A stretch of 64,000 nt of DNA from the NCBI RefSeq assembly GCF_001969445.1, contig NZ_CP017297.1:186001-250000 (forward strand), given 5' to 3'. Under the pieces are notes generated by a model. That model did no database searches and had not been told where the DNA came from. It was given only the letters and a program-made list of their open reading frames with translations. A program made the translations under genes and the position numbers. Below are positions 16,492 to 35,668 of the stretch, piece by piece. The DNA comes from Brachybacterium sp. P6-10-X1 (GTDB taxonomy: Bacteria; Actinomycetota; Actinomycetes; Actinomycetales; Dermabacteraceae). Within the stretch, counting starts at the first letter, position 1. The number at the start of each line of letters is the position of its first letter.

Positions 16492-17448
16492 TCACCAACC
16501 CCGGATCGACCAGCCGGCGCTGCTCTCCGCCCCCGGTGCCAGGGACACCACATCGATCCCGCTGCGGAACGCGTCGGGCGGGCAGGTCATCGGTTCGACG
16601 GCGAGGCCGAGACGGTTGTTCTCCGGCTCCGGACGGTCTCCGGTGTGCACCTGCAGCCAACCGCACTCCTGCCCGGCGCTGAGCGCCACCCCGGTGCCGC
16701 CGGGCGCGGTCACCGTGACCGACAGCCGACCGGCCTCGTCCCGGCCCAGATCGGTGAAGGCGTGGTCGATGAACGTCTCACCGATGACCCGGGGCTCGCG
16801 GAAGTCGAAGGCGCTGCCGGGGGCGACGGGCTCGGTCCCTGTCGGCAGCAGGCGATCCTCGGTGACGGTGAGCACCGTCCCGGCGGTGACCTGCAGCGAC
16901 CACGCATCCAGAGCCCCCGGCCCCGCCACCAGATACGGATGTGGGCACACGCCGTACGGGGCGTCCCGGTCGCCGAGGTTGCGGGCGGTCACCGTGGTGG
17001 TGAGCCCGTCCTCGGCGTCCAGGGAGTGCTGGACGGTCAGCAGCAGGTGGAAGGGATACCCGGGGGAGGGGACCAGCTCGGTGCGCAGCACGATCGTGTC
17101 CTCGGCGACCGTGACCGGGGTGAAGGACTGGAAGGAGACCAGCCCGTGCAGGGCGTTCCCGCGCTCGGGTTCGTTCAGGGCCGTCTGGATCCGCTGCCCG
17201 TCCCAGGTGTAGGCCCCGTCGCCGATCCGATTCGGCCACGGCGCGACGACCGCGCCGCGGTAGAACTGCATCGGTCCCTGCTCGGGATTGCGCACCAGCA
17301 GGTCCCGCCCCCCGACGGTGAGGGACTCGAGGATCGCGCCGACCGTGGAGACCTCCGCCCGGTAGGTCCCGGCGGCGAGGGTGTACAGGTCTCCGCGGTC
17401 CCGGACGCCGACGACGTCCGTCCCCTCGGTGCTCGCGCTGGTGCTCAT
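16492..17448 (-). CDS. Aldose 1-epimerase family protein
   Basis: 318 residues. It fits the GalM/YihR-like mutarotase fold: NALHGL (catalytic His region, about residue 100), CPHPYL (second His) and AVEPMTCPPDAF (catalytic Glu). Such enzymes interconvert alpha and beta sugar anomers in the cytosol. Its ATG overlaps the lutC stop (ATGA), so it is the last gene of the lutA-lutB-lutC unit, an unusual partner for lactate oxidation but sensible beside fucose genes. Substrate cannot be told from sequence. Confidence 0.88.
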   Translation of the reverse strand: MSTSASTEGTDVVGVRDRGDLYTLAAGTYRAEVSTVGAILESLTVGGRDLLVRNPEQGPMQFYRGAVVAPWPNRIGDGAYTWDGQRIQTALNEPERGNALHGLVSFQSFTPVTVAEDTIVLRTELVPSPGYPFHLLLTVQHSLDAEDGLTTTVTARNLGDRDAPYGVCPHPYLVAGPGALDAWSLQVTAGTVLTVTEDRLLPTGTEPVAPGSAFDFREPRVIGETFIDHAFTDLGRDEAGRLSVTVTAPGGTGVALSAGQECGWLQVHTGDRPEPENNRLGLAVEPMTCPPDAFRSGIDVVSLAPGAESSAGWSIRGW

Positions 17449-18245
17449 GCTGTCCTCTCCTGGGCCTCGGTCAGATCGTGCTGCTCATCGTGGTGCTGGT
17501 CCTGTACCTGCTGCTCGTCGTGGTGCTGGTCCTGATCCTGCTGCGGGGCCGGGGGCTCGATCAGGACCACCTCGAGCCGACGCGGGCCGTGCACGCCCTC
17601 GACCCGGCTGAGCTCGATGTCGCTGGTGGCGCTCGGCCCGGAGATCATGGTCCAGGGAGCTCCCGGGTCGGTGCCCATGCGCTCGACCGCTTTGGGGACG
17701 CCGAGGACCACCTGCTCAGCGTCGACCACCACCACGTGGCGGTCCGGCACCAGTGAGATCGCTCGCCGTCCCCCGAGCTCGTCGCCGCGCAGGACGATCG
17801 TGCCGGTCACGGCGATCGCGGTGTGGCAGCCGGTCAGGACCGCGTCGATCCGGTCGAGGGCCCGGGGGCCGGTGCTGCCGTCGTCCCGGGACACCGCGAT
17901 CTCCAGCTCGTCCGTCCACGAGGCGGGGACCCCGGGCGATGCGATGACGCTGCGGGCGTCTCCGAGCGCCTCGGCGATGGTCGCGGAGAGCTTGGCGGGC
18001 GTCGTGCGGTGGACGACGGCGGTGTAGTCCTCCAGGCGTCGGACCAGCACGTCGCGCATCTTCGCCGGCTCCGTCGTGACCTCCGGCTTGCCGTCGGCGC
18101 GCTGGTAGGTGCGGGGGACGTCCTCCGCCTCGGTGACCTGGTCGCGGCGCGGCGCCGCCAGCGCCGTGCGCACCCGGGCCAGGATCTCGTCCTTCGCGCT
18201 CAGCCCCGGGGTGCGGGCAGGACGCTGGTCGTCCCAGTCGTTCAT
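17445..18245 (-). CDS. lutC: L-lactate utilisation protein LutC (LUD domain)
   Basis: 266 residues. The LUD domain runs from about residue 45 to 225 (AVTGTIVLRGDELGGRRAISLVPD, then GVHGPRRLEVVLIE near the end). With LutA and LutB it forms the non-flavin complex oxidising L-lactate to pyruvate. I chose ATG 18245 because it overlaps the lutB stop (ATGA). The C-terminal 33 residues are unusual: a Gln/His/Asp-rich tail from a 30-bp duplication (QDQHHDEQ twice). Confidence 0.92.
   Translation of the reverse strand: MNDWDDQRPARTPGLSAKDEILARVRTALAAPRRDQVTEAEDVPRTYQRADGKPEVTTEPAKMRDVLVRRLEDYTAVVHRTTPAKLSATIAEALGDARSVIASPGVPASWTDELEIAVSRDDGSTGPRALDRIDAVLTGCHTAIAVTGTIVLRGDELGGRRAISLVPDRHVVVVDAEQVVLGVPKAVERMGTDPGAPWTMISGPSATSDIELSRVEGVHGPRRLEVVLIEPPAPQQDQDQHHDEQQVQDQHHDEQHDLTEAQERTA
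17481..17537. repeat. 30-bp period duplication inside the lutC 3' end
   Basis: Plus-strand 17481-17504 and 17511-17534 match at 23 of 24 bases with a 30-bp period. In frame, it duplicates ten residues of the LutC tail. Confidence 0.7.
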
Positions 18246-19795
18246 GCCTGCTCCTCGCCCTGCGGGCCGTCCGAGCCGGCGTCGTCGGAGCGGGTCTTCT
18301 CCCGGGCGTCCCACCAGCTGCGGAACGAGGGGCCCGGCTTGGGCAGATCGCGGTGATCGGTCCACCCCGGCACCAGGGGGACGATGCCTGGCAGCTTGCC
18401 GATGTTCGTACCGGGCAGGAGCTTGGTCAGCGGCCCGGCCGAGCGCACGGCCTTGTCGTAGGCGCCCGGGGAGGACATCAGCGTGCTCGCCCCCTTCATG
18501 GCGACGTCCCATCTCCCGCGGAACTGTCCGCGGGTGTCGCGACGCCCGTCGACGTCCTCGGCGCGCAGGTGCACCAGGATCTTGGGGATGTCGATCTTGA
18601 CCGGGCACACGTCGTAGCAGGCACCGCAGAGGCTCGAGGCGTAGGGCAGGGACGTGCTCGGATCGTCCGGTCCGTTCATCCCCGTCATCTGGGGCGAGAG
18701 GATGGCGCCGATCGGGCCGGGGTAGGTCGAGCCGTAGGCGTGCCCTCCCGTCCGGGCGTAGACGGGGCACACGTTCAGGCAGGCGGAACAGCGGATGCAG
18801 TGCAGGGCGCTGCGCCCCTCGGGGTCCTCCAGCACCGCGCTGCGCCCGTTGTCCAGCAGCACCAGATGGAACTCCTCGGGACCGTCCCCCTCGGTCAGCC
18901 CGCTGAACAAGGTGGTGTAGGGGTTCATCCGCTCTCCGGTCGAGGAGCGCGGCAACAACTGCAGGAACACCTCGAGGTCCTCGAAGGTGGGGACGATCTT
19001 CTCGATCCCCACCACAGAGATGAGCGTCTTGGGCAGCGTGAGGCACATGCGGCCATTGCCCTCGGACTCCACGACCACCATCGTGCCGGTCTCGGCGACG
19101 GCGAAGTTCGCCCCGGAGATCGCGACCGATCCCGGCATGTCCAGGAACTTCTCGCGCAGGAAGCGACGGGCGGCCTCGGCGAGCTCCGCCGGGTCGTCGG
19201 TGATCGACTCGTCCAGATCGGGCATCGCCGCCAGGAAGATCTCCCGGATCTCGGCGCGATTGCGGTGGATCGCCGGGACCAGGATGTGACTGGGGGTGTC
19301 ATCGGCCAGCTGCACGATGAGCTCGGCGAGATCGGACTCCACGGCGCGGATCCCGGCGTGGGCGAGCGTCTCGTTCAGGCCGATCTCCTGAGTAGCCATC
19401 GACTTGACCTTGAGCACCTCCTCGGCACCGCGCTCGAGAGCGAGACCGGTGATGATCTCTCCGGCCTCCTCGGCATCGCGAGCCCAGTGCACCACGCCAC
19501 CGGCGGCGGTCACCGACTCCTCGAGCTGTTCGAGCAGCTCCGGCAGATGATCGGTGACCTGCCACTTCAGGGCGCTGCCGGCGTCGCGCAGCTTCTGCCA
19601 GTCGCGCACCTCGCGCACCGCCGAGGCACGCTTGGAACCGATGGTGGCGGTGGCCGTGCGGAGGTTCTCGCGCAGCGTCGCATCGTCCAGCTCGTCCCTC
19701 GCCGCCTCGGGGAAGGAGCGCGATCCGCGCAGGTTCGAGGACGGTGAGGCGTGCTGGGGACGGACGGACGGGATGCCGAGGTCGATCGTGTTCAT
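18242..19795 (-). CDS. lutB: L-lactate utilisation iron-sulfur protein LutB
   Basis: 517 residues. An N-terminal LUD-like domain (GLALERGAEEVLKVKSMATQEIGLNE, VAISGANFAVAETGTMVVVE) is followed by two 4Fe-4S clusters, CIRCSACLNVCPV and CGACYDVCPVK (about residues 330-400), and a C-terminal Pro-rich part. It is the electron-transfer subunit of the LutABC complex. The ATG is overlapped by the stop of a 43-codon ORF that bridges from lutA; no strong ribosome-binding site other than AGGAGGAGA inside that ORF, which is well placed. Confidence 0.95.
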   Translation of the reverse strand: MNTIDLGIPSVRPQHASPSSNLRGSRSFPEAARDELDDATLRENLRTATATIGSKRASAVREVRDWQKLRDAGSALKWQVTDHLPELLEQLEESVTAAGGVVHWARDAEEAGEIITGLALERGAEEVLKVKSMATQEIGLNETLAHAGIRAVESDLAELIVQLADDTPSHILVPAIHRNRAEIREIFLAAMPDLDESITDDPAELAEAARRFLREKFLDMPGSVAISGANFAVAETGTMVVVESEGNGRMCLTLPKTLISVVGIEKIVPTFEDLEVFLQLLPRSSTGERMNPYTTLFSGLTEGDGPEEFHLVLLDNGRSAVLEDPEGRSALHCIRCSACLNVCPVYARTGGHAYGSTYPGPIGAILSPQMTGMNGPDDPSTSLPYASSLCGACYDVCPVKIDIPKILVHLRAEDVDGRRDTRGQFRGRWDVAMKGASTLMSSPGAYDKAVRSAGPLTKLLPGTNIGKLPGIVPLVPGWTDHRDLPKPGPSFRSWWDAREKTRSDDAGSDGPQGEEQA

Positions 19796-19923
19796 GCGGC
19801 CGTCTCCTCCTGTTCGTTCCTCGCAGCTCGTCGACCGATGCTGACTTCTGCGGTGTCGTTGCCATCGAGCGCTGTCGCAACGACACCGCAGATCTCGGTC
19901 GGAGAGAGTGGACGGATGGTCAT
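19792..19923 (-). CDS. Putative 43-residue bridging ORF between lutA and lutB
   Basis: Reading on the minus strand, ATG 19923-19921 overlaps the lutA TGA (ATGA), and the TGA at 19794-19792 overlaps the lutB ATG (ATGA). It encodes 43 residues with no recognisable domain. It contains a perfect 16-bp inverted repeat. It may be a real small protein, or a means of carrying ribosomes through a hairpin so that lutB is translated. The double coupling is what I see; a product is not established. Confidence 0.4.
   Translation of the reverse strand: MTIRPLSPTEICGVVATALDGNDTAEVSIGRRAARNEQEETAA
19847..19892 (-). repeat. Perfect 16-bp stem-loop between lutA and lutB
   Basis: TCTGCGGTGTCGTTGC at 19847-19862 and its exact reverse complement at 19877-19892, with a 14-nt loop. 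In the transcript it forms a strong hairpin 50 to 95 nt before the lutB start. No T tract follows, so it is not a typical terminator; stability, processing or ribosome-controlled expression are possible. Confidence 0.75.
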
Positions 19924-20705
19924 GAGGCCTTCCCCAGGATGGTCTCGGCCGGGACGAAGGGGTCCTCCCGGGTCGAGGCGAGGATCTGCGCGAGGTGGAT
20001 GGCGCGCGGTGCAGCGTCGGTGCGGCGCAGCTTGCCGCCGATGTTCATCAGGCAGGAGGCGTCGCCGGCGACCACGTACTCCGCGCCGGAGGAGACCACG
20101 TTCGCGGCCTTGTCGGTGACCATCGCATCCGAGGTGGCGTCGTTCTTGACCGAGAAGGTGCCCCCGAAGCCGCAGCAGGTGTCCGACTCCTCCAGCCGCT
20201 TCATCTCGAGCCCCTCGACCGCGCGCAGCAGCTTCAGCGGTCGCGGACCGACCTTGAGCACCCGCATCGAATGGCAGGTGGGGTGGTAGGTGACGCTGTG
20301 CGGGAAGTAGGCCCCGACGTCGGACACCTTCAGCACGTCCACCAGAAGCTCGGAGAGCTCGTAGGTCTTCGCCGAGACCGCCGCAGCCCGCTGCTCGAGC
20401 TCCTCATCGCCTTCGTGCCGGGCCACCAGCCGGTGCTGATCGCGCACACAGCCCGCGCAGGACCCCGAGGGCATCACGATCGCGTCGACCGAGTCCAGGG
20501 ACGGCTCGAAGGTGTCCACGAAGCTGCGCACCACCGGCGCCGCCTCCGTGTAGTAGCCGGTGTTGGTGTGCATCTGCCCGCAGCAGGTCTGGCGCTTGTC
20601 GAACACGACCTCATGGCCCAGTCGCTCCAGCACGGTCACGGTGGCCCGGGCGACGTCCGGGGCCATCACGTCCACCAAGCACGTGGTCATCAGCGAGATG
20701 CGCAT
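19920..20705 (-). CDS. lutA: L-lactate utilisation protein LutA
   Basis: 261 residues with two cysteine-rich CCG-type motifs, TCCGQMH (about residue 41) and DTCCGFGGTF (about residue 180), plus SCAGCVR and YHPTCHSMR. These are the ligands of the heterodisulfide-reductase-like [4Fe-4S] site of LutA/GlcF-type subunits. First gene of lutA-ORF43-lutB-lutC-epimerase. AGGAAGAAGGAT precedes ATG 20705. A terminator-like hairpin separates it from mqo upstream. Confidence 0.93.
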   Translation of the reverse strand: MRISLMTTCLVDVMAPDVARATVTVLERLGHEVVFDKRQTCCGQMHTNTGYYTEAAPVVRSFVDTFEPSLDSVDAIVMPSGSCAGCVRDQHRLVARHEGDEELEQRAAAVSAKTYELSELLVDVLKVSDVGAYFPHSVTYHPTCHSMRVLKVGPRPLKLLRAVEGLEMKRLEESDTCCGFGGTFSVKNDATSDAMVTDKAANVVSSGAEYVVAGDASCLMNIGGKLRRTDAAPRAIHLAQILASTREDPFVPAETILGKAS

Positions 20706-20780: not shown

Positions 20781-22265
20781 TCAGCGGTGCTCGAGGCCCA
20801 GTGCCGCGGCGGTGTCGGCGAGGCTGCGGTGCGCGGCGTCGGGATCGTCCGAGAGAAGCGTGCCCCAGCTCGGCACCATCTGGGCGATGCCGGGGCGCCA
20901 GCCCTCGATGCGGTCGGGGAACATGCGCTCGAGGAGGTTCAGCATGATGCTGGTCGCGGTCGAAGCACCCGGGGACGCACCCAGCATGCCGCCGATCGAC
21001 CCGTCGGCCGCGGTGATCACCTGGGTGCCGAACTGGAGCACGCCGCGCTTGTCGGCATCGGGGGCGATCACCTGGACGCGCTGGCCCGCGGTGACCTCCT
21101 CCCAGTCCTCCATCTGCGCCGAGGGCATGTACTCCAGCAGCGCCTCGAAGCGCTGGCGACGCGTCGCGGCGAGCTGGGAGCCCAGGTAGACCATGAGATC
21201 GAGGTTGGGAGGGGCGACGGCCATCATCTGCGTGATGTTGGAGGGCTTCATCGAGGCGAACAGGTCCATGTAGCTGCCGGACTTGAGGAACTTCGGGGAC
21301 CAGCCGGCGTAGGGGCCGAACATCAGCGAGCGGCGGCCCTCGACGTACCGGGTGTCGAGGTGGGGGACGCTCATCGGCGGGGCGCCGACGCCGGCCTTGC
21401 CGTAGACCTTCGCATCGTGGCGGGCGATCACGTCCTCGTCGGTGCAGCGCAGCCACTGGCCGGAGATCGGGAACCCGCCGAAGCCGCGGATCTCCTCGAT
21501 GCCGGACTTCTGCAGCAGCGGCAGGGCGGCGCCGCCGGCCCCGACGAAGACGAAGGGGGCGCGGATCACGCGGACCTCGTCGTCGGAGGTGTCGCGGACC
21601 ATGACGCCCCAGTCGCTGCCCATCCGGCGCAGGTCGATGACCTCGCTGCCGGTCGAGACCGTGGTGCCCACGCGGCCGGCGTGCTGCAGCAGCTGATGGG
21701 TCAGCGAGCCGAAGTCGACGTCGGTGCCGTCGGGCGAGCGGGTCGCACCGATGGTCTCGGTGACGGGCCGCGACTCGGTCACCAGCGGGGCCCAGTCGCT
21801 CAGCTGCGCATGCTCGGAGGTGAACTCCATACGGTCGAACAGCGGGTTCGCCGTGAGCGCCTCGTGCCGGCGGCGCAGGTAGTCCACGTTCTCGATGCCG
21901 TGCACGAAGCTCATGTGCGGCACCGGGTGGATGAAGGTGGAGGGGTCGCCGATCTTGTCGTTCTCCACCAGGTGCGCCCAGAACTGGCGCGAGACCTGGA
22001 ACTGCTCGTTGATGGTGATCGCCTTGGCGGGGCTCACCGAGCCGTCGACGTCCTGCGGCGTGTAGTTCAGCTCGCACAGGGCGCTGTGCCCGGTGCCGGC
22101 GTTGTTCCACCCTTGGCTGGACTCCCGGCCGAGATCGTCCAGCTTCTCGAGCACCACCACGTTCCAGTCGGGTTCGAGTTCGGTGAGCATCGCGGCCAGG
22201 GTGGCGCTCGCGACCCCGCCGCCGATCAGCACCGCATCCGCACGGGTCACATCCAGGTCTGCCAT
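20781..22265 (-). CDS. mqo: Malate:quinone oxidoreductase
   Basis: 494 residues, normal length. The N-terminal FAD motif is VLIGGGVASATLAAML; GRESSQGWNNAGTGHSALCELNYTP and the C-terminal GASPGASTA are hallmarks of the Mqo family. It oxidises malate to oxaloacetate and passes electrons to menaquinone at the membrane face. I chose ATG 22265 after GGAGAGAC; the upstream extension is not Mqo-like. Mqo is a TCA enzyme and need not belong to the sugar pathway beside it. Confidence 0.95.
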   Translation of the reverse strand: MADLDVTRADAVLIGGGVASATLAAMLTELEPDWNVVVLEKLDDLGRESSQGWNNAGTGHSALCELNYTPQDVDGSVSPAKAITINEQFQVSRQFWAHLVENDKIGDPSTFIHPVPHMSFVHGIENVDYLRRRHEALTANPLFDRMEFTSEHAQLSDWAPLVTESRPVTETIGATRSPDGTDVDFGSLTHQLLQHAGRVGTTVSTGSEVIDLRRMGSDWGVMVRDTSDDEVRVIRAPFVFVGAGGAALPLLQKSGIEEIRGFGGFPISGQWLRCTDEDVIARHDAKVYGKAGVGAPPMSVPHLDTRYVEGRRSLMFGPYAGWSPKFLKSGSYMDLFASMKPSNITQMMAVAPPNLDLMVYLGSQLAATRRQRFEALLEYMPSAQMEDWEEVTAGQRVQVIAPDADKRGVLQFGTQVITAADGSIGGMLGASPGASTATSIMLNLLERMFPDRIEGWRPGIAQMVPSWGTLLSDDPDAAHRSLADTAAALGLEHR

Positions 22266-22401
22266 GTCTCTCCGTTCCAGCTGTCTCGGGGCGCGCCCGA
22301 GGGTGGGGCGCGATCCTCGCGCAGCCCCGGGTGGTCTGCCGTCCAGGGTATCCCGTGTCCCGGCGGCTCGACCGCATGGCCCGGACCGGAGCCGTCGGAG
22401 C

Positions 22402-23079
22402 TCAACCGGCAACGCCGCGGCGGGCCTCCAGGTCCGTCAGCAGCAGTTCGATGCGCCGGCCCAGCAGCACCGTCGCACCCTCGATCGCGGTTGCGGCGCC
22501 CACCAGGAGCCCGACCGGCCAGACCAGGGAGCATACGGCGATCCAGGCGGCCAGCCCGAGGACGACGGCGATGAAGTGCACGGGCAGGGTGCCGGGCAGC
22601 AGCAGAGCGAGGCGCCAGGAGACCGGCAGGTCCTGACGGCGCACCCGGGGCACGGCGACGAGGACGGCGGCGGAGACGGTGGACCAGGCGGCGCTGATCA
22701 CGGCGAGACCGGCCAGGACGATGGTGGCCGCCGAGCTCGGAACCGCTCCTCCGAGCACGATCCAGAGCATCGCTGCGGAGCCGGTCTGCACCACCATCAG
22801 GGGGAGAAGTCGCAGGTTCGCACTGACCAGCTGGTGTCGCCAGCTCTCCCACATCACCGTCGACACCCTCACCTTCGCTCCGTATCGGGAGGCGCGGAAG
22901 GCATCGGCCGCGGCGACGCTGGCCGGTGCGATTCCCAGCACGACCAGACCCAGGAGGCTGAGCAGGGACCAGACGAGGTTCACGCGCAGCACCAGCCAGA
23001 CCTGGTCCACGGCCTCGTTGAATCGTGTGACCCAGACGGGTACCTCGGCGGGCCCACGGGACGGGCGGGAAGTCGTCAT
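22402..23079 (-). CDS. YesL-like (DUF624) membrane protein
   Basis: 225 residues, about five hydrophobic segments (near 25-50, 88-110, 113-138, 150-175, 180-205). A YesL/DUF624 pattern is suggested by the aromatic N-terminal helix with WLVLRVNLVWSLLSLLGLVVLGIAPASVAAADAFR. YesL proteins often accompany oligosaccharide ABC transporters of the LplABC type, which fits this cluster. It diverges from the first fucosidase gene across a 79-bp region holding two operator-like repeats. Function unknown. Confidence 0.75.
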   Translation of the reverse strand: MTTSRPSRGPAEVPVWVTRFNEAVDQVWLVLRVNLVWSLLSLLGLVVLGIAPASVAAADAFRASRYGAKVRVSTVMWESWRHQLVSANLRLLPLMVVQTGSAAMLWIVLGGAVPSSAATIVLAGLAVISAAWSTVSAAVLVAVPRVRRQDLPVSWRLALLLPGTLPVHFIAVVLGLAAWIAVCSLVWPVGLLVGAATAIEGATVLLGRRIELLLTDLEARRGVAG

Positions 23080-23105
23080 GGGCTGAGGCTACACGTGCCC
23101 CCACA

Positions 23106-23144
23106 AGACACCCGATGTCTTCTTGCCACAGACACCCGATGTTT
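23106..23144. promoter_or_regulatory. Two operator-like direct repeats between DUF624 and fucosidase genes
   Basis: AGACACCCGATGTCT (23106-23120) and AGACACCCGATGTTT (23130-23144), 24 bp apart. The first is nearly palindromic (AGACA...TGTCT). On the minus strand the second reads ATCGGGTGTCTGTG, 11 of 14 identical to ATCCGAGGTCTGTG near the fuconate dehydratase promoter (30467). A plausible operator for the FadR-type regulator at 34976-35668. Confidence 0.5.
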
Positions 23145-23158: not shown

Positions 23159-24463
23159 ATGGAAACAGCTCCGCACGGCATCGCCGTCGACCCTGAGCCC
23201 CTCCGTCCCACCCCTGAGCAGCTGCAATGGCAGAGGGATGGTCTCGGCGTCTTCTTCCACTTCGGGATCAACACCTTCGCCCAGAAGGAGTGGAGCAACG
23301 GTTCCGTGCCCTCCGACCTCTTCGCGCCGACGGATCTCGATACCGATCAGTGGGTGCGCACCGCCAAGGACCTCGGCGCCGTGTACGTGATCCTCACCGC
23401 CAAGCATCATGACGGCTTCTGCCTGTGGCCCACCGCGACCACCGACTACTCGGTGGCCTCCTCCCCGTGGCTCGGTGGCGAGGGCGACGTGGTGGGGGAG
23501 CTGGCTGCATCCTGCCGAAAGTACGAGATGAAGCTCGGACTGTATCTCTCGCCCTGGGACCGCAATGCCCCGCAGTACGAGGACCCCGAGGCCTACGACG
23601 AGTTCTACCTCGCCCAGCTGCGGGAGGTGTGCACGAACTACGGCGAGCTGCATGAGCTGTGGTTCGACGGTGCTGGCTCGGCGGGTCGCGAGTACGCCTG
23701 GGACCGCATCGGCTCGCTCATCGCCGAGCTGCAGCCGCAGGCGATGGTGTTCAACATGGGCCCGGCCACCATCCGCTGGATCGGCAACGAGGACGGGCTC
23801 GCCTCGGACCCGGTCCAGTACGTCACCCGCTCGACCGACCTGAACCAGTACGACCCGGACGTGGTTGATCTCGGCGCGGCCCGTTACCTGCCCCCGGAGT
23901 GCGACGTCTCCCTGCGCAACGGCTGGTTCTGGCAGGAGGCGGAATCACCCAAAGAGCTCGCTCACCTGCTGGGGATCCACGACCGGTCGATCGGTTTGGG
24001 CGCGAACCTCCTGCTGAACGTCCCGCCGGACCGGACCGGACGCATCGGAGAGGACGACGCCGCACGCTGCCGCGAGCTGCGGGCCGCCCTCGACGCCCGG
24101 TTCGGGGCGCCGACCTCCGCGACCGTCCGGGCAGAGTCGGACGGTCACGTGCGCCTGGAACTGCCGGCGACGGCCGGGACCTGGTTCGACCATGTCGAGC
24201 TGCGGGAACGACTCGAGGATGGCCAGCGGGTCACCTCCCACCGGATCGTCACAGACGACGGGCAGCTGGTTGCCGAGGGCGGCACCGTGGGTGTCCGACG
24301 CATCCACCGGCTGGCCCGCCCGTTGAGCACGCGCACGCTCCTGGTCGAGCTGGTCGGTGACGGCGCGATGCTGGAGGCAGCCTGCGTCCACGACGCCAGC
24401 GGGGCGCCGGTCCCGCAGCTCGACGAGTCGAACAGGGCATCGTCGGCGGCACCGGTGGACTGA
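23159..24463 (+). CDS. Alpha-L-fucosidase (GH29)
   Basis: 434 residues. The GH29 barrel is recognisable from FFHFGINTFAQKEW, VILTAKHHDGFCLWPT and LWFDGAGS, where the Asp is in the position of the catalytic nucleophile. No signal peptide is present, so it acts on imported oligosaccharide in the cytosol. The LNVPPDRTGRI segment closes the barrel; a small C-terminal beta domain follows. ATG 23159 follows GATGGGATGGAGGG. It has its own control region shared with the DUF624 gene, apart from the second fucosidase gene at 31826. Linkage specificity cannot be told. Confidence 0.92.
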   Translation: METAPHGIAVDPEPLRPTPEQLQWQRDGLGVFFHFGINTFAQKEWSNGSVPSDLFAPTDLDTDQWVRTAKDLGAVYVILTAKHHDGFCLWPTATTDYSVASSPWLGGEGDVVGELAASCRKYEMKLGLYLSPWDRNAPQYEDPEAYDEFYLAQLREVCTNYGELHELWFDGAGSAGREYAWDRIGSLIAELQPQAMVFNMGPATIRWIGNEDGLASDPVQYVTRSTDLNQYDPDVVDLGAARYLPPECDVSLRNGWFWQEAESPKELAHLLGIHDRSIGLGANLLLNVPPDRTGRIGEDDAARCRELRAALDARFGAPTSATVRAESDGHVRLELPATAGTWFDHVELRERLEDGQRVTSHRIVTDDGQLVAEGGTVGVRRIHRLARPLSTRTLLVELVGDGAMLEAACVHDASGAPVPQLDESNRASSAAPVD

Positions 24464-28370: not shown

Positions 28371-30173
28371 TCAGCCGTACTGCTGGTCGTACGCATCCTG
28401 GGCGATGCTGATGTACGTATCGACGCCGATGGCCCGGGCCTTGTCGAGATACGCGGTCCAGGAGGCGTCGTCGGCGGCGTCTGCGCGGCCGGTGGCGAAG
28501 TCCGCGATGGTCTGCTTCAGATGGTCCTCGAGATTGAGGATGATCTCTCCGGTCTGGGCGGACTGCTCCATGTCGTAGATCAGCGGGGGCACGCCGATCT
28601 TCTCAGGGGTGGCGAAGGGCTCGACGAGCTTGGTGCCCTCATAGAGGATCGGCTCGATCGAGGGGGAATCCGGGTCGAGAGCTTCCGAGTGGCGCTGTGA
28701 CGTCGACTTGTACAGAGGGCCCCACTCCCGCCAGGTGCGGTTCTTCAGCTCGTCGCCGGGGTTCAGCACCGTGTAGACGGCCTGCTGGCTGTCTATGCCG
28801 GTCTGGCCCTCGTCGGCCCAGTCCCAATCGGCGCCCTGTTCCCCGCGGGTGATGGAGACCGTCAGACCGAGCTCGAACTGGTAATCCGCCCAGCGGACCA
28901 TCTGCACCGGATCGGGGCACTGCGGGGTGATGACGAAGTTGGGGTAGCCGTAGGAGAAATGGTCCCACTGGCAGCTGCGTACGCCGCCCGGGCCCTCCAG
29001 CGGTTCCATCACCGTCATGATCCGGGAGATGTCCTCGGGATCGGAGGGATCCGAGGCGGTCGCGAAGTGGAAGGTGGAGTAGCCGTAGGCGATGCCGAAC
29101 TCAGGGCCGCCGGAAGCGTCGCCGAGGCTCTGGTACTGCTCGGGGGTGTTGGAGAGGATCCCGGGATCGAAGTTGCCGTCGGCGAACTGCTTCTGGATCC
29201 AGATCATGCCCTCCCGGAAGGCGGGGTCGTCCTGGACCCATTCGACCGTCGATCCGTTTCGGCGCAGGTTGATCTCCGGGATCTCGAGGAAGGAGCCCAG
29301 GAAGAACTGCATCAGCTGGAGCATGGTCTCGGCGCTGGCGGTGGTCAGGGCGGAGCCCTCGGGCTTACCGGAGTAGGTCCGGAACTCGTCCATGAGCTCC
29401 TCGTACTCGGTGATGCTCGTCGGCGCCTCGGCGCCGACACCCTCCAGCCAGCCGGAGTTGATCCAGGTGCGGACGTTCGCGGCCTTGCAGTGGTAGCAGT
29501 CGTTCATCGAGGGGACGGCGTAGAGCCTGCCGTCGGGGGAGGAGTACTGCTTGCGCATGTCGGGGAAGGACGCGAACATGTCCAGGATGTGCGGGGCATT
29601 CTCGTCGATCAGCCTGTCCAGCGGCAGGAACAGGCCCTGCTGGCCGTAGATGCTGATCTCGGAGAGGTTGAAGATGTCCTGGCCGACCATCATCGCATCG
29701 GGCAGGTCACCGCCGGCGACGATGGCGTTCACCTTGGTCTTTCCGTCTTCGCCGGCCGGGACCGTGAGGTAGGAGACGTTGACGCCGGTGGTCTCCTCGA
29801 GGTGCTGGGAGTAGTAGTTGGTCTCGAAATCCATCCCGGGATCGACCTGGCTGAGCACCGAGAAGTCAGTGTCGCCGTCACCGAAGGGTTCCAGCGCGCG
29901 CGCTCGCGGGCCGACGTAGTCCTCGGGGTAGTTGACTCCGTCGATCTCCGGGGCGAGATCGTATTTCAGGGTCGCGCTGCCGGGCTGGTAGTCCTCACCT
30001 CCCGTGATCTCGTCGTCCGCGTCGGCATCGCCCCCGCAGGCGCTCAGCACGAGCGGCGCCGTGACGGCTGCGGCACCGGCGGCCGCGCTGCGACCGAGGA
30101 AGGCACGTCGCGCCAGGGGTTCGGGCTGGGCGGGCGGAGCGTCGGGCTGATCCTGGTGGTCCTTGGCGTCCAC
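28371..30173 (-). CDS. Tat-type solute-binding lipoprotein 2
   Basis: 600 residues from GTG 30173, which follows GAAGGAG with 5-nt spacing; the open frame extends further but lacks a start with a ribosome-binding site. Tat motif RRAFLGRS and lipobox LSAC (Cys near residue 46) are present. The mature domain resembles the LplA family and is homologous to the protein at 24559-26319. First gene of the transporter operon, expressed from the divergent promoter region 30174-30528. Confidence 0.9.
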   Translation of the reverse strand: MDAKDHQDQPDAPPAQPEPLARRAFLGRSAAAGAAAVTAPLVLSACGGDADADDEITGGEDYQPGSATLKYDLAPEIDGVNYPEDYVGPRARALEPFGDGDTDFSVLSQVDPGMDFETNYYSQHLEETTGVNVSYLTVPAGEDGKTKVNAIVAGGDLPDAMMVGQDIFNLSEISIYGQQGLFLPLDRLIDENAPHILDMFASFPDMRKQYSSPDGRLYAVPSMNDCYHCKAANVRTWINSGWLEGVGAEAPTSITEYEELMDEFRTYSGKPEGSALTTASAETMLQLMQFFLGSFLEIPEINLRRNGSTVEWVQDDPAFREGMIWIQKQFADGNFDPGILSNTPEQYQSLGDASGGPEFGIAYGYSTFHFATASDPSDPEDISRIMTVMEPLEGPGGVRSCQWDHFSYGYPNFVITPQCPDPVQMVRWADYQFELGLTVSITRGEQGADWDWADEGQTGIDSQQAVYTVLNPGDELKNRTWREWGPLYKSTSQRHSEALDPDSPSIEPILYEGTKLVEPFATPEKIGVPPLIYDMEQSAQTGEIILNLEDHLKQTIADFATGRADAADDASWTAYLDKARAIGVDTYISIAQDAYDQQYG

Positions 30174-30203
30174 GGTGACTCCTTCGTCGGGGATGGTGCG
30201 GAG

Positions 30204-30232
30204 AATATGACATAGATCGGAGGTGTCGGCAA
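30204..30232 (-). promoter_or_regulatory. Predicted promoter and operator of the transporter operon
   Basis: Minus strand: -35 TTGCCG (30232-30227), 17-bp spacer, -10 CATATT (30209-30204), start point about 25 nt before GTG 30173. The plus-strand motif ATCGGAGGTGTCGG (30216-30229) overlaps the spacer and -35, a classical repressor position. Confidence 0.55.
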
Positions 30233-30428
30233 GGATAGATCGGATCATTGAGGGTGCGGGGTGATTCGGGGGTGAAGCCGCAGCCGGTCGACGACCGGCC
30301 TTGTCCGACGGCTGAACCTGCGATGCGCCCGTGGCGAAGGGTTCCCCCACTGTGTATTCGCGCCTCTCAGGGGATCCGAGCGGCGACGGCGCGACCGGAT
30401 GCCACGATGTTCTGCCGCGCCATCTCGC

Positions 30429-30479
30429 TTGATCAAAGGTCCGAGGTGTCGTAATCTCGTCGGAACATCCGAGGTCTGT
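30429..30479 (+). promoter_or_regulatory. Predicted promoter with two operator copies, fucose operon
   Basis: -35 TTGATC (30429-30434), 17-bp spacer, -10 TAATCT (30452-30457). The spacer contains GTCCGAGGTGTCG (30439-30451); a second copy, ATCCGAGGTCTGT, lies just downstream of the -10 (30467-30479). The same motif is in the divergent promoter at 30216. Between the two promoters (30233-30428) I see no gene. Confidence 0.6.
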
Positions 30480-30528
30480 GCCGATGCCGGATCGGCCGCG
30501 CACGACCTGTCCCAGGAGGAGCGTGCCC

Positions 30529-31842
30529 ATGGCCACGATCACGTCGCTCACCGTTCACGACGTCCGCTTCCCGACCTCTCGCGAACTCGACGGGTCTGAT
30601 GCGATGAATCCCGATCCCGACTATTCGGCCGCCTACGTCGAGCTGCGCACCAGCGACGGGGAAGCGGGCTACGGACTGGTCTTCACCATCGGTCGCGGCA
30701 ACGATGTGCAGGCGGCGGCGATCGAGGCGCTGTCCCTCCATGTGCTCGACCGTGACGTGGACACCCTGCTCGCCGATCTCGGCGGGTTCTCCCGTGCGCT
30801 GATCGGGGACTCCCAACTGCGGTGGCTGGGCCCCGAGAAGGGGGTCATGCACATGGCGATCGGAGCACTGGTCAACGCGGCCTGGGATCTGCGGGCACGC
30901 CGCGAGGACAAGCCGCTGTGGCTGCTGCTGGCCGAGCTCACGCCCGAACAGGTCGTCGAGCTGGTGGACTTCCGGTATCTCACCGACGCCCTCACCCGTG
31001 AGGAGGCCCTGGAGATCCTGCGCCGTGCCGAGCCCGGCAAAGCCGGGCGCATCGCGACACTGCAGAAGAGCGGCATCCCGGCGTACACCACGACGCCCGG
31101 ATGGCTCGGGTACAGCGATGGGAAGCTCGCCCACCTGCTGCGCGAAGCCCGTGCCGAAGGCTTCGAGATGGTCAAGCTCAAGGTCGGTGGCTCCGTCGAG
31201 GACGATGTGCGTCGGATGGCGGTCGCACGCGACGTTCTGGGAGCGGACTTCCCCATCGCGATCGATGCCAATCAGCGGTGGGACGTCGCCGAAGCAGTGC
31301 AGTGGCTGGGCCGGCTCGCCCCTTACCGCCCCGCCTGGATCGAGGAGCCGACCAGTCCCGACGACGTTCTCGCTCACGCGGCGATCCGACGGGCGGTCGC
31401 GCCCCTGCCGGTCGCCACCGGTGAGCAGGTGCAGAACAGGATCGTCGCCAAGCAGTTGATGCAGGCGGAGGCGATCGACGTGTTTCAGCTCGACGCTGCG
31501 CGCGTCGGGGGCGTCAACGAGAACATCGCCATCATGCTGCTGGCCGCCAAGTTCTCCGTGCCGGTATGTCCGCACGCCGGTGGGGTCGGGCTGTGCGAGC
31601 TGGTTCAGCACTACGCCTTCTTCGATGCCGCCGCGGTGAGCGGCGAACACGGTCACCGCTACATCGAGTACGTCGACCACTTGCACGAGCACTTCGAGGA
31701 CCCGGTGTCCATCGTCGACGGTGCGTACGAGGCGCCGCTGGCAGCGGGATCCGGAGCCCGCATGCATCCATCCACTGTCGAGTCGCACCTGTACCCGACC
31801 GGACCGGTCTGGACGGAGGAGAGTCATGTCCCTGTCGCCTGA
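30529..31842 (+). CDS. L-fuconate dehydratase (enolase superfamily)
   Basis: 437 residues. It dehydrates L-fuconate to 2-keto-3-deoxy-L-fuconate. Enolase-superfamily features: KLKVGG (KxK general base), [17 protein letters not shown] and GEQVQN as Mg ligands, and [11 protein letters not shown] near the C terminus. The N terminus with [22 protein letters not shown] is characteristic of fuconate dehydratases. CAGGAGGAG precedes ATG 30529. The adjacent fucosidase, fucose dehydrogenase and lactonase genes support the substrate. Overlaps the next gene by 17 bp. Confidence 0.92.
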
Positions 31843-33163
31843 ATCCACCCACGCCCGCTGCGACACCTCGCCTGCCGATGCGCTCGCCTGGTTCGACGAC
31901 GCCCGCTTCGGTCTGTTCGTCCACTTCGGGCTCTACGCGATCCCTGCTCGGCACGAGTGGATCATGACCCGTGAACGGCGCAGTCCCGAAGACTACGAGC
32001 GCTACGCCGAGCTGTTCGACCCGGACCGCTTCGACGCCCGCCGGATCGCGCGCATCGCGCGGGAGGCCGGGATGCGCTACGCGGTGCTGACCACCAAGCA
32101 CCACGAGGGCTTCTGCCTGTTCGACAGCGCACTGAGCGACTACACCTCCCAGCACGCCTGCGGTCGCGATCTGGTGCGGGAGTTCGTCGACGCTCTTCGG
32201 GAGGAAGGAGTGCGGGTCGGGTTCTACCACTCGGTGATCGACTGGCACCATCCCGACTTCCCGATCGATCGCCTGCATCCTCTGCGCGATCGCGAGGATC
32301 GCGAGGAGCTCGACCGGGGCCGTGACATCGCCCGGTACCGCGAGTACCTCCACGGCCAGGTCCGCGAGCTCTTGACCGGGTACGGCGAGGTGGACTACCT
32401 CTTCTTCGACTTCACCTACCCGGGTGGGAACGGCAAGGGGCCCGAGGACTGGGACTCCGAGCGTCTGCTGGCCATGGTGCGCGAGCTCCAGCCTGGCTGC
32501 GTGGTCAACGACCGCCTCGGGATTCCGGGTGACCTCGTCACCCCTGAGCAGTACCAGCCGGCCGAGCCTATGCGGGACGACGCCGGCGAGACGGTGCGCT
32601 GGGAGGCCTGCCAGACCACCAACGGTTCATGGGGCTACGACCGCGACAATCTCGAGTTCAAGTCGCCCGATCTGCTGCTGCGGATGCTGGTGGATACCGT
32701 CGGGAAGGGCGGGAACATGCTGTTGAACATCGGACCCGACGGCCGTGGCGGGCTGCGGCGCGAGGACACGGACTCGCTCGCGGAGATCGGGGAGTGGATG
32801 CAGCTGCACGAGGCGTCGGTCCATGGCGCCGGTGCGGTCGACCCTGCCCTCGGCATCCTCGCTCCGCCAGGGACCCTGCTGACCCAGCGCGGAGACCATC
32901 TGTACATCCATCTCACCTCCTGGCCGATGTCGCATCTGCACGTGCGCGGCCTGGCCGGGTCGGTCCGCTTCGCTCGCCTGCTGAACGACGGATCGGAGAT
33001 CGCCTTCTCGACCATCGACCCGGCGCAGAAGGGCAGTCATACCACCGTCGGCGGCATCAGCGACGACACCGTGACCTTCACCGTCCCGATCATGCGGCCC
33101 GACGTGCTGCTGCCGGTGATCGAGGTCTGGCTGGAGACCGGAGCGAGCGGAGCGGGCTCCTGA
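31826..33163 (+). CDS. Alpha-L-fucosidase (GH29), second copy
   Basis: 445 residues. GH29 motifs: [32 protein letters not shown] and YLFFDFTYP with the nucleophile-position Asp. It differs markedly from the GH29 protein at 23159, so the two probably prefer different linkages. No signal peptide, so cytosolic. ATG 31826 follows GGAGGAGA, inside the end of the fuconate dehydratase gene. Its stop is overlapped by the next gene. Confidence 0.92.
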
Positions 33164-34110
33164 GCGCGGCCGCCGCTGCGGAGCGGGCGCCCCTGCCCGC
33201 TCTCGGCTTCGGCGCCGCCCAGCTCGGAAACCTCTACCGGGTCACCACCGACGAGGAGGCGCGCGGCGCCGTCGACGCCGCCTGGGACGAAGGTGTCCGC
33301 CTGTTCGACACGGCACCGCACTACGGGATCGGCACCAGCGAGCGCCGGCTCGGCGCCCTGCTGGCCTCCTACCCCCGCGAGGACTACCTGCTCTCGACCA
33401 AGGTGGGGCGCCTGCTGGTGCCCGGCCCCGGCGACGGGGACGACATGGCCCACGGGTTCGCGGTCCCGAACTCCCATCGGCGGGTGTGGGACATGAGCGA
33501 GGCCGGGATCCGCCGCAGCCACGCCGAATCCCTGGAGCGGCTGGGGCTGGACCGGGTCGACGTGCTCTACCTCCACGACCCCGAGGAGAGCCCCACCGAA
33601 CAGGCCTTCGCCGAGGCGCTGCCGACCCTCGCCGCGATGCGCGAGGAGGGGCTGATCAGCCACGTCGGAGTCGGGTCCAAGGACGTCGACGTCCTGCTGC
33701 GCGCCGTGCGCACCGGGCTGCTCGACGTGATCATGCTGTCCGGGCGCTACACGCTGCTCGAGCAGCCCGCCGCCGCGGAGCTGCTGCCGGCCTGCCTCGA
33801 GCACGGGGTGGAGGTGGTCGCGGTCTCCGTGTTCAACTCCGGGATCCTCTCCCGGCCCGAGGTGCCCGACGACGCGAAGTACGAGTACGGTGCCGCGCCG
33901 GTCGAGCTCCTGCAGCGTGCCCGGCATCTCGCCGCGCTCGCCGCCGAGCACGGGGTCCAGCTGCCGGATCTCGCTCTCCGCTACCCGCTGCGCCACGAGG
34001 CGGTCTCCTCGGTGGTCCTCGGCATGCGCACCGCGGACCAGGTGCGGCAGAACCTGGAGCGGGTGGCCCGCACGATTCCCGAGGAGCTCTGGGAGCAGAT
34101 CGATGCCTGA
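33160..34110 (+). CDS. Aldo/keto reductase, probable L-fucose 1-dehydrogenase
   Basis: 316 residues if started at CTG 33160, which overlaps the fucosidase stop (CTGA) and follows GGAG by 7 nt. No ATG, GTG or TTG lies in frame near the conserved N terminus LPALGFGAAQLGNLYR. AKR catalytic residues are seen: Asp and Tyr in FDTAPHYG, Lys in STKVGR, His in LYLHDPEE. D-threo-aldose (L-fucose) dehydrogenases have this layout; the reaction gives fucono-lactone with NAD(P)+. Neighbours agree. Start codon is the main uncertainty. Confidence 0.85.
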   Translation: MSAAAAAERAPLPALGFGAAQLGNLYRVTTDEEARGAVDAAWDEGVRLFDTAPHYGIGTSERRLGALLASYPREDYLLSTKVGRLLVPGPGDGDDMAHGFAVPNSHRRVWDMSEAGIRRSHAESLERLGLDRVDVLYLHDPEESPTEQAFAEALPTLAAMREEGLISHVGVGSKDVDVLLRAVRTGLLDVIMLSGRYTLLEQPAAAELLPACLEHGVEVVAVSVFNSGILSRPEVPDDAKYEYGAAPVELLQRARHLAALAAEHGVQLPDLALRYPLRHEAVSSVVLGMRTADQVRQNLERVARTIPEELWEQIDA

Positions 34111-34972
34111 GGGGACCACCGATGCCCACCTGCACCTGTGGGACCTCAGCGGGGGAGGCTACCGCTGGCTCGGCGGGGCTGCGGAGGCCCTGCGCCGCGA
34201 TGCCCGTTGGGAGGAGGTCGCGCCCCAGCACGCGGCGCTCGGCGTCCAGCGCGTGGTCCTGGTGCAGGCCGATGACACCCACGCCGACACCGCCGCGATG
34301 CAGCGGGCCGCGGCCCGGATCGAGGCCGGCCCCGGTCCGGTGCGCCGGGCCGACGTGGTCGCCTGGCTGCCGCTGGCCGATCCCGCCCGCACCGCGGAGC
34401 TGCTGGACGATGCCACGGCGATGCGGCACGTCGTCGGGGTGCGCCATCTGATCCACGACGAGCCCGACCGGGGGTTCCTGGACCGCCCGGAGGTCCGTGA
34501 GTCCCTGGCCCTGCTGGCCGCCCGGGGCCTCCCGCTCGATGTTCCCGATGCCTTCCCCCGGCACCTGGACCAGGCAGTTCGCGTGGGATCGGAGGTCGAC
34601 TCCCTGGTGCTGGTGCTGGACCACCTCGGCAAGCCCCCGCTGGGCGAGGCCGCGGCGATGGGGGAGTGGGAACGCTCCCTGCGCGAGTTCGCGGGTCTCG
34701 GAACCAGCATCGCGAAGCTGTCCGGGCTCGCCACCAGCGGCGCGGGGTACGCGGCCGCGACGGACCTGCGCCGCGCCGTGGATCTGGCCGGGGAACTGTT
34801 CGGACCCGGTCGGCTGATGTTCGGCAGCGACTGGCCGATCGCCCCGACCGCCTTCGACCTCACCTCCGGGACCAGCGGTCTGATCGCACTGCTGGAGGAG
34901 CTGCCCGCCACCGATCGTGCTCAGATCCACCGCGGCACGGCGCAGCGCGTGTACCGGCGCCCGGCCGAGTGA
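34103..34972 (+). CDS. Amidohydrolase, probable L-fuconolactonase
   Basis: 289 residues. Amidohydrolase-2 family: DAHLHLWDL metal motif (HxH) at residues 7-14, VLDHLGKPPL and FGSDWPI with the catalytic Asp. It would hydrolyse L-fucono-1,5-lactone to L-fuconate, linking the dehydrogenase (33160) and dehydratase (30529). ATG overlaps the end of the reductase gene by 8 bp. Last gene of the plus-strand fucose operon, convergent with the regulator gene 3 bp away. Confidence 0.9.
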   Translation: MPEGTTDAHLHLWDLSGGGYRWLGGAAEALRRDARWEEVAPQHAALGVQRVVLVQADDTHADTAAMQRAAARIEAGPGPVRRADVVAWLPLADPARTAELLDDATAMRHVVGVRHLIHDEPDRGFLDRPEVRESLALLAARGLPLDVPDAFPRHLDQAVRVGSEVDSLVLVLDHLGKPPLGEAAAMGEWERSLREFAGLGTSIAKLSGLATSGAGYAAATDLRRAVDLAGELFGPGRLMFGSDWPIAPTAFDLTSGTSGLIALLEELPATDRAQIHRGTAQRVYRRPAE

Positions 34973-34975
34973 GGC

Positions 34976-35668
34976 TCAGTCGAGGCCGGCTCCCTTGAGG
35001 ATCCAGCTCTCGACGCCCCCGATGTGTGCGGCGGCGTGCACCCGGGCCAGGTCCCCTCGCCCCTGGCGCAGCGCGTCGAGGATGCGGCGATGCTCGGCCA
35101 GGGTGGAGTCCACGGCGGCGTTCTCGGTGAGCCCTCGCCAGACCCGCGCCCGCGCCGTCGCGCTGGCGAGGCCCTCGAGCATCGAGGAGAGGTAGGCGTT
35201 GGGGCAGCGACTGGTGATCAGCTGATGGAAGTCGATGTCCGCCTGCACCAGCTCCTCGACGCTGGAATGCTCGGAGAGGTCGACCATCAGCTGCTCGAGA
35301 CGCTCGAAGTCGTGCTCGCCCAGACGGGGGCAGGCCTGCTCCACCGCCGTGGGCTCCAGCAGCCGGCGCACCTCGAGGATCTGCTCCTCCCCGGAGCCGT
35401 GGTGGAGATCGAGGATGAAGCCGAGCGACTCGACCAGCAGGCTCGGGGCGAGGGACGTGACATAGGTGCCATCGCCCTGGCGCACGTCCAGCACGCGGAT
35501 CACGGACAGGGCCTTGACGGCCTCGCGCAGCGAGTTGCGGCTCACGCCGATCCGCTCGGAGAGCTCCTTCTCCGGCGGCAGGCGGTCGGCCGGGCCGAGC
35601 TCGCCGTCGATGATCATCTGCTTGATCGCGTCGATCGCGCGATCCGTCACGGCATGCGGTGCTGGCAT
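34976..35668 (-). CDS. GntR-family regulator, FadR (FCD) subfamily
   Basis: 230 residues. Winged helix at residues about 5-70 (LPPEKELSERIGVSRNSLREAVKAL, VRQGDGTYV). The C-terminal all-helical FCD domain has metal-site residues DIDFHQLI, EHRRILDA and AAHIGG. FCD regulators sense small carboxylates or sugar acids; here fuconate, 2-keto-3-deoxyfuconate or lactate are candidates. Position at the end of the fucose operon makes it the likely regulator of the motifs at 30216, 30439, 30467 and perhaps 23106/23130. Confidence 0.9.
   Translation of the reverse strand: MPAPHAVTDRAIDAIKQMIIDGELGPADRLPPEKELSERIGVSRNSLREAVKALSVIRVLDVRQGDGTYVTSLAPSLLVESLGFILDLHHGSGEEQILEVRRLLEPTAVEQACPRLGEHDFERLEQLMVDLSEHSSVEELVQADIDFHQLITSRCPNAYLSSMLEGLASATARARVWRGLTENAAVDSTLAEHRRILDALRQGRGDLARVHAAAHIGGVESWILKGAGLD

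Follow-up and report, generated by a model that had tools for sequence, protein, structure and literature searches.

In the genome of Brachybacterium sp. P6-10-X1, a single contig of 4.39 Mb, genes for the use of fucosylated glycans and the L-lactate oxidation genes lutABC lie together between lsr2 and clpC, which raises the question of whether the two gene sets form one inserted and jointly controlled pathway or are linked in some looser way. The DNA analysed here (the window) is a 64-kb stretch of ~71% G+C, in which the lsr2-clpC interval contains 16 genes (Table 1). An earlier interpretation made from the letters alone (the sequence-only reading) had named these two flanks correctly, as the Pfam Lsr2 domains and the clpC match confirm, and had also recognised two fucosidases and lutABC, for which two GH29 matches and the LutC, LutB and LutA domains are found. 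It had counted 15 genes, had not named mqo, which stands between lutA and the fucose genes, and had taken the whole set for one inserted fucose-to-lactate unit. We consider it quite probable that, instead, a fucosylated-glycan cassette has settled next to an older mqo-lutABC-galM unit, on its clpC side, that a remote pair of genes encoding an SDR dehydrogenase and an FAH-fold hydrolase under the same predicted GntR operator completes the route, and that the link of lut to fucose is here metabolic and positional, not regulatory. The cassette would comprise permeases, solute-binding proteins, two GH29 fucosidases, an aldo/keto reductase (AKR) dehydrogenase, a lactonase, an L-fuconate dehydratase (encoded by fucD) and a GntR/FCD regulator.

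A predicted operator at the fucose promoters

Regulation and neighbourhood may be told apart at this locus by an operator-like palindrome, AGACATCSGATGTCT, which occurs at the fucose promoters of the island and at the remote SDR/FAH locus. It was found by comparing the gap between the genes for DUF624 and fucosidase GH29a, once alignments and pattern searches near fucD had given a first, weak hint, and the 15-bp matrix that describes it was trained solely on 20 sites from this gap in 11 genomes (two of the 20, in G257, are weak), so that the sites in the DUF624/fucosidase gap are training data. The matrix recurs at the gap between solute-binding protein 2 and fucD and at the remote locus. In the window, the sites of at least 9 bits are the six of Table 1, every one in a fucose intergenic gap, and one at 57006; none lies near mqo, lut or galM. 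The 250 bp before mqo score no higher than 1.5 bits in the window, and in 33 of 34 loci the corresponding maximum does not exceed 8.0 bits. At the remote locus, one site (14.7 bits) lies where the SDR gene and a dehydrogenase gene diverge, another (19.8 bits) 110 bp upstream of the FAH gene, and two more (13.5 and 15.1 bits) elsewhere in the 20-kb stretch. Because the operator stands at the fucose promoters and the remote locus and not at mqo or lut, the predicted regulon consists of the fucose cassette and the remote dehydrogenase/hydrolase pair, with lut outside it.

In 35 control loci (548,292 bases, mostly of other families that differ in base composition, and with an overlap of ~9.9 kb between L229 and L243 counted twice), no site reaches 15 bits and two reach 13 bits. 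When up to one mismatch is allowed, a degenerate pattern matches the own genome 13 times and the reversed control pattern never; five of the 13 lie at fucose-route promoters, including all three exact matches, of which the one at the FAH gene is independent of training, and seven of the remaining eight fall inside reading frames called by a crude ORF caller. Every one of the 46 named fucD loci whose GntR protein shares at least 45% identity with that of the island has a site of at least 15 bits, as do 11 of the 34 named loci that have no such GntR gene in view, some of which perhaps have it beyond the fetched stretch. Within the genus, this GntR accompanies fucose genes and was not seen in lut-only intervals. 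Operator sites precede FAH, fucD or GntR genes in both the island clusters of related genomes and those situated elsewhere, not in all of them: no site of at least 13 bits was found in the elsewhere loci L158, L162, L163, L166 and L167, in the short L169 or in the loci cut by contig ends. We infer from this distribution that the GntR/FCD protein of the island would bind the palindrome. Simpler descriptions of the site were rejected. The motif ACATCSGAGGWCT is at chance level (59 observed versus 59.6 expected), the core ACATCSGRTGT is not enriched across the whole window (29 observed versus 48 expected), only the trained 15-bp matrix separating the sites, and counts of exact palindromes upstream of gntR and fucD gave no common motif.

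A predicted fucose route split over two loci

The enzymes and routes of the non-phosphorylative L-fucose pathway are set out in the available part of PMC11199699. The cassette, at the clpC side of mqo-lutABC-galM, would take fucose as far as 2-keto-3-deoxy-L-fuconate (L-KDF) by means of the AKR, the dehydratase and a fuconolactonase candidate, whose best NCBIfam match, FuconLaconase, reaches 148 bits against a cut-off of 400 and which matches PDB 4dlf with an E-value of 3e-25. Of the oxidative fucose breakdown that the sequence-only reading had placed in the island, these three predicted enzymes are encoded there; the last two, L-KDF 4-dehydrogenase and 2,4-diketo-3-deoxyfuconate hydrolase, are not among the island genes scanned. 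With the SDR and the FAH-fold hydrolase of a Streptomyces fucose operon (locus L100) as queries for these steps, homologues were found in the own genome (G000) at C1:3064826-3065569 (SDR, 62% identity; the runner-up by score has 38%) and C1:3068405-3069241 (FAH, 56%; the second match has 39%), ~2.8 kb apart and ~2.86 Mb from the island. Under the common predicted operator, and judging by this homology, the pair would convert L-KDF to pyruvate and L-lactate, and a second pyruvate would arise from the lactate through LutABC, through two LldD-like enzymes encoded elsewhere, or through both. The stretch around the pair (L178, L217; G000:C1:3046000-3078400) also contains genes for a Zn-dehydrogenase, a GntP-type transporter and an LldD-like protein, and may serve other sugar acids as well.

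The predicted route resembles the Xanthomonas campestris-type route via 2,4-diketo-3-deoxyfuconate, as described in the same source, in its AKR, candidate lactonase and fuconate dehydratase (here in the island), its SDR and FAH proteins (here homologues encoded elsewhere) and its end products, pyruvate and L-lactate, which are here predicted from homology. It differs in that this genome splits the genes over two loci 2.86 Mb apart with a common predicted operator.

A probably older lut unit beside lsr2 and clpC

The lut gene set of the island is complete, with CCG, LUD plus Fe-S and LUD subunits all present. It is the same three-gene set, with the same LUD, CCG and Fe-S domains, as the LutABC (LldEFG) operon, from which it differs in that its genes adjoin mqo and galM, with no regulator gene alongside in the window. 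The product of mqo was also considered as an L-lactate:quinone oxidoreductase, and this was rejected, since its Lac_Quin_Ox score of 535 bits lies below the curated cut-off of 915, and it passes NF003610.

All 38 genus genomes were searched for clpC, lutB and fucD, which were matched in 34, 32 and 27 of them, respectively, and the galM-mqo stretch was read in 33 (all but G255, G260, G263, G265 and G266). At these 33 loci galM and mqo are always present (mqo of G261 is in pieces), lsr2 is found in 32 (not G261) and lysS in 31 (not G261 and G233). The lutCBA genes stand between galM and mqo in 27 and are missing there in G132, G244, G076, G222, G188 and G267, the sole lutB of G132 being a different copy elsewhere (59%). 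The distance from lutB to clpC is 2.4-20.6 kb in 24 of the 32 lutB genomes, the shortest intervals (2.4-3.1 kb) including lutA and mqo, and 52 and 94 kb in G104 and G256; clpC is on a different contig in G254 and G265 and was unmatched at the cut-off in G255, G260 and G263.

The lut-mqo genes lie beside galM whether fucose genes are present, partial or absent. No fucose-type gene was recognised between mqo and clpC in G248, G253, G090, G250, G011, G233, G261 and G132, and five of these genomes (G248, G250, G011, G090 and G233) have lutCBA-mqo beside galM with fucD nowhere in the genome. Relative to mqo, fucD lies towards clpC in 10 genomes (the clpC of G254 being on another contig); in 17 it is elsewhere. 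At 12 of the 17 elsewhere loci SDR, FAH, fucD, AKR and lactonase genes are together, the others being incomplete in the stretch or contig read, and lut is absent from the stretch read at all 17. A link between lut and fucD in phylogenetic profiles was rejected (both genes in 21 genomes, fucD only in 6, lutB only in 11, neither in none). A match to FMN_dh or lutB was obtained in all 38 genomes, so this second pattern does not discriminate. The comparison of the interval among relatives, which the sequence-only reading had proposed as a check, came out divided: among the 21 genomes with both genes, fucD and lut lie side by side in 10 and apart in 11. Its claim of one inserted unit is not supported, in view of this separation, the five genomes with lutCBA-mqo-galM and no fucD, the six fucD genomes without a lutB match, the lack of a fucose operator at mqo and lut in the window and the lut genes of G049, a member of family f15, which lie between lsr2 and clpC with no recognised fucose enzymes.

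A promoter-like element of the GATACNCTG class (in the window, GGGATACCCTGGACGGC) lies ~90 bp before mqo in 16 of the 34 loci scanned upstream of this gene, and it does so with or without fucose genes; the mqo start is approximate in 12 of the 34. The mqo-lutABC-galM genes thus appear to be an older, separately controlled unit, apparently with its own promoter; since the predicted operator is not at mqo or lut, the link of lut to fucose would here be metabolic and positional, not regulatory.

History of the locus

We take lsr2 and clpC1 to be neighbours in M. tuberculosis. Among 30 genomes outside the genus, clpC was found in 29: lsr2 lies within ~1.5 kb upstream of it in 9 and further upstream, with cargo between or not, in 5 (G034, G059, G211, G174 and G049); it was unrecognised in the stretch read in 13 (G062, G013, G008, G060, G014, G004, G172, G017, G108, G009, G002, G021 and G003), and in G015 and G016 only a short locus around clpC was read. 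The adjacency is common, not universal, in this sample. The sister genus (G062) has the order lysS-galM-lutCBA-mqo-GH29a ... GntR-clpC, with lsr2 unrecognised and fucD unmatched at the cut-off applied; a third genus (G211, G174) has lsr2-galM-mqo adjoining clpC; and in family f15 the order is lysS-lsr2 ... lutCBA ... clpC in G049 and lysS-lsr2 ... lutCBA in G093, with no fucose enzymes recognised. Because the sister genus and f15 also have lut there, the presence of lut near lsr2 and clpC either predates the genus or arose twice. Further genes lie between GntR and GH29a in G062 (L219, 4300-10300), some of which resemble by eye a molybdopterin oxidoreductase set, and a GntR-like gene with ~30% identity to that of the island stands beside lutA in both f15 loci (L243, L246).

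In three genomes of the genus (G160, G256 and G104), FAH, SDR and GntR genes and cassette remnants share a stretch with mqo-lutABC, fucD being short or not found. To judge from all these loci, the sister genus included, fucose-type cargo at this place predates the genus and has been eroded and replaced. In a fucD tree built by a quick method, 26 genus proteins (that of G257 was left out) need three location changes, and with three outgroup rows added the well-supported branches force at least two; these changes indicate that the cassette has been re-assorted. The sister species G252 (L114) is 92-98% identical to the window in lut and mqo and 93-97% in the AKR, lactonase and GntR genes, with 78% in fucD and 71% in GH29a, and has a shorter, different middle in place of window positions 22402-33163, with no transporter recognised, which suggests that this middle was exchanged by recombination in conserved flanks.

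Probable lactate-oxidising enzymes in fucose operons of other lineages

Among 80 named fucD loci, 71 of them at least 20.9 kb long, homologues of lutA, lutB and lutC occur near fucD in two, both Streptomycetaceae (Streptomyces L100 and Peterkaempfera L106), in a run FAH-fucD-SDR-AKR-lutABC-mutarotase (rhaM)-lactonase with predicted operator sites before FAH; in a third (L054, Halopolyspora) a weak lutA/lutB match lies ~9 kb from fucD. Five of the 80 (L048, L061, L073, L103 and L104; ~11359-12730), four from Dyella and one from Luteibacter, have an LldD-like FMN gene no more than 0.4 kb after fucD. A phylum-wide fucD survey (40 of 396 genomes) was too thin to be relied on by itself. Outside the genus, lutB occurs in 23 of 75 fucD genomes; KDF-route genes lie within 10 kb of it in 3 of the 22 neighbourhoods read (19 without), a set that excludes the weak lutB genomes G082 and G138 (39%), against a chance expectation of ~0.2 by a rough hand estimate. 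In G108, of another family, the second lut copy abuts fucD (lutCBA-fucD-AKR..SDR-FAH); in G172 lutABC is followed by FAH-AKR-SDR-lactonase within 10 kb, on the far side of clpC; and G469 has lutABC-SDR-FAH.

The joining of lactate oxidation to fucose operons thus looks like a recurrent, uncommon theme, and in some of these lineages the lut-fucose link appears to have become a true operon. A wider proposal, for and against which the case seems to us evenly balanced, is that L-lactate dehydrogenases have been taken up, repeatedly and independently, by fucose operons whose end product is L-lactate: LutABC in several lineages of actinobacteria, and an LldD-like enzyme in Dyella and Luteibacter. 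Each fucose would thereby yield two pyruvates. On this view the genus studied here would show an unfused stage at its lsr2-clpC locus, and one GntR/FCD regulator with the operator AGACATCSGATGTCT would control such operons across Actinobacteria.

Weighing the explanations

The metabolic side of the sequence-only reading, in which fucose-to-lactate conversion and LutABC form one pathway, has gained ground, as homologues of the enzymes are encoded in the island and at the remote locus, LutABC stands beside the island and operon fusions exist in other lineages. If these genes were a single acquired island leading from fucose through lactate to pyruvate, with LutABC as a dedicated final step that selection keeps beside the fucose genes, this would account for the 10 genomes with fucD and lut together, for the remnants beside mqo-lutABC in G160, G256 and G104, for the fusions in L100, L106 and G108 and for lutABC near KDF-route genes in G172 and G469. 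We nevertheless regard it as unlikely, given lut-mqo without recognised fucose cargo in seven genomes (those listed above other than G132), six fucD genomes without a lutB match and 11 with both genes and fucD elsewhere, the absence of this GntR from lut-only intervals of the genus and of the operator from mqo and lut in the window, and the re-assortment of the cassette implied by the fucD tree. An equally improbable alternative is that sugar genes in general land in the lsr2-clpC interval and that the neighbourhood of lut has no metabolic meaning. The different, shorter middle of G252 beside well-conserved lut and mqo would fit this, as would the interval of G059, from another family (L224, 397-7698), a ~7-kb lsr2-clpC gap that contains galM (44%) and, by ORF sequences only, an apparently different sugar ABC transporter. 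However, the recognised cargo of the genus is of one kind (GH29, DUF624, solute-binding proteins and permeases, fucose enzymes), as found by a search limited to homologues of window genes, and minimal lutB-clpC intervals are short.

A more serious possibility, though still a somewhat doubtful one, is that LldD-like FMN enzymes do most of the oxidation of fucose-derived lactate, with LutABC reserved for lactate from the environment. Two FMN_dh genes are present in the own genome, with ~9 kb separating one of them from the remote gene for KDF dehydrogenase, FMN_dh is present in all six fucD genomes without a lutB match, and LldD-like genes directly follow fucD in Dyella and Luteibacter. On the other hand, the fucD genomes G257, G118, G029, G264 and G199 have no FMN_dh match and lut only, both own-genome FMN proteins score under the curated LldD cut-offs, which makes their substrate uncertain, and no notable operator-like site lies near the FMN gene at 3054732 (one of 8.1 bits in L217). 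The explanation that we favour, a fucose cassette beside an older and separately controlled lut unit, also has points to answer. The GATACNCTG-class element was not found upstream of mqo in 18 of the 34 loci searched; in the sister genus a 13.6-bit operator-like site lies between GH29a and mqo, which diverge from this one gap; and the 10 of 21 genomes with fucD beside lut exceed the expectation for unlinked genes, so that selection for proximity is possible. The best family of the remote FAH protein is, below its cut-off, a rhamnonate-route hydrolase, and with its other transporters and Zn-dehydrogenase the remote locus could primarily serve L-rhamnonate or another acid; the substrates of the AKR and the transporter are likewise inferred.

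Gene inventory of the interval

From the lsr2 side, the genes are galM, lutC, lutB, lutA, mqo and the DUF624 gene (all on the minus strand) and GH29a (plus); in the middle solute-binding protein 1, two permeases and solute-binding protein 2 (all minus); and at the clpC side fucD, GH29b, AKR and lactonase (plus) and the GntR/FCD regulator (minus). The import of oligosaccharides proposed by the sequence-only reading would fit the solute-binding proteins and permeases; no ABC ATPase was recognised within the interval; such sugar ABC transporters are usually served by a shared ATPase encoded elsewhere. No integrase is among the island proteins scanned, and the only tRNA of the window, at 48899, lies outside the island. 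The genome has three Lsr2 matches (in the window at 16101-16430, and at G000:C1:524960 and G000:C1:873230). The G+C content dips modestly to 0.63-0.66, versus ~0.72, at window positions 26001-31000, over the permease and solute-binding protein genes, a possible Lsr2 target.

Table 1. The lsr2-clpC interval with its borders, predicted operator sites and promoter-like element (positions in the window)
Feature	Positions	Strand	Basis
lsr2, left border	16101..16430	+	Pfam PF11774 (dimerization) and PF23359 (DNA-binding)
galM, aldose 1-epimerase	16492..17448	-	PF01263
lutC, LUD-domain subunit, start inferred	17445..18245	-	PF02589
lutB, iron-sulfur L-lactate oxidation subunit	18242..19795	-	TIGR00273, 439.3 bits, just below cut-off 444.8; LUD, Fer4 and LutB_C
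lutA, cysteine-rich (CCG) subunit	19920..20705	-	PF02754
mqo, malate:quinone oxidoreductase, ATG start at 22265 inferred	20781..22265	-	NF003610, 814 bits, above curated cut-off 745
Promoter-like element GGGATACCCTGGACGGC, ~90 bp upstream of mqo	22338..22354	-	Element class GATACNCTG
DUF624 membrane protein	22402..23079	-	PF04854
Predicted fucose operator site, 25.1 bits, training site	23106..23120	+	Matrix
Predicted fucose operator site, 25.5 bits, training site	23130..23144	+	Matrix
GH29 alpha-L-fucosidase a	23159..24463	+	PF01120
Solute-binding protein 1	24559..26319	-	PF01547
ABC permease 1, UgpA-like	26387..27388	-	PF00528; NF007852 below cut-off
ABC permease 2, UgpE-like	27396..28367	-	PF00528; NF008210 below cut-off
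Solute-binding protein 2, AlgQ2-like, GTG start at 30173 inferred	28371..30173	-	PDB 6jhx AlgQ2, E 5e-19
Fucose operator-like site, 11.4 bits	30212..30226	-	Matrix
Predicted fucose operator site, 17.2 bits	30235..30249	-	Matrix
Predicted fucose operator site, 13.4 bits	30435..30449	+	Matrix
Fucose operator-like site before fucD, 9.0 bits, in a block conserved among 6 aligned genomes	30463..30477	+	Matrix, alignment
fucD, L-fuconate dehydratase, start inferred	30529..31842	+	PDB 1yey, E 5e-189
GH29 alpha-L-fucosidase b, start inferred	31826..33163	+	PF01120, E 2e-83
Aldo/keto reductase, probable L-fucose 1-dehydrogenase, approximate start	33160..34110	+	PF00248; 71 of 80 named fucD loci have a homologue nearby
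L-fuconolactonase-like amidohydrolase, start inferred	34103..34972	+	NF052480; PDB 4dlf
GntR/FCD regulator, proposed fucose regulator	34976..35668	-	PF00392 and PF07729
clpC, right border	35932..38514	+	Match

Comparable systems and significance

The recruitment of lldD and lldEFG into rhamnose regulons of Actinomycetales and Rhodobacterales, which extends the pathway to pyruvate, is described in the available part of Rodionova 2013 (PMC3870299). As in those RhaR regulons, the catabolism of a deoxyhexose would here be prolonged to pyruvate via a recruited L-lactate dehydrogenase; theirs concern rhamnose and a phosphorylated route (RhaEW), whereas here the sugar is fucose, the route that of the diketo-hydrolase and the operator that of a GntR/FCD protein. 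A lutABC operon with a rhamnulokinase gene is reported in the portion of PMC11596606 available. FucR-predicted fucose and fuconate loci of mat bacteria (Halomonas, Rhodobacteraceae and A. marincola; PMC5507952, in part) have the same enzyme classes (COG0179, COG1028 and FucD) and predicted FucR sites, but belong to other host organisms. In the open literature searched, which lacks most subscription journals and was judged largely by listings and excerpts, no description was found of lutABC inside a fucose operon or of the operator AGACATCSGATGTCT.

What is new and useful here is threefold: a predicted pairing of regulator and operator, a pathway split over two loci, and fusions with lactate-dehydrogenase genes in other lineages. 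What looks like a regulon can here be told apart from mere neighbourhood, as the cassette and the distant dehydrogenase/hydrolase pair have a common predicted operator that lut is without, and the GntR/FCD protein and its palindrome give work on fucose use in Actinobacteria a candidate regulator and operator to test. At the lactate end of the pathway, the comparison suggests that two unrelated enzymes have been recruited into fucose operons in different lineages.

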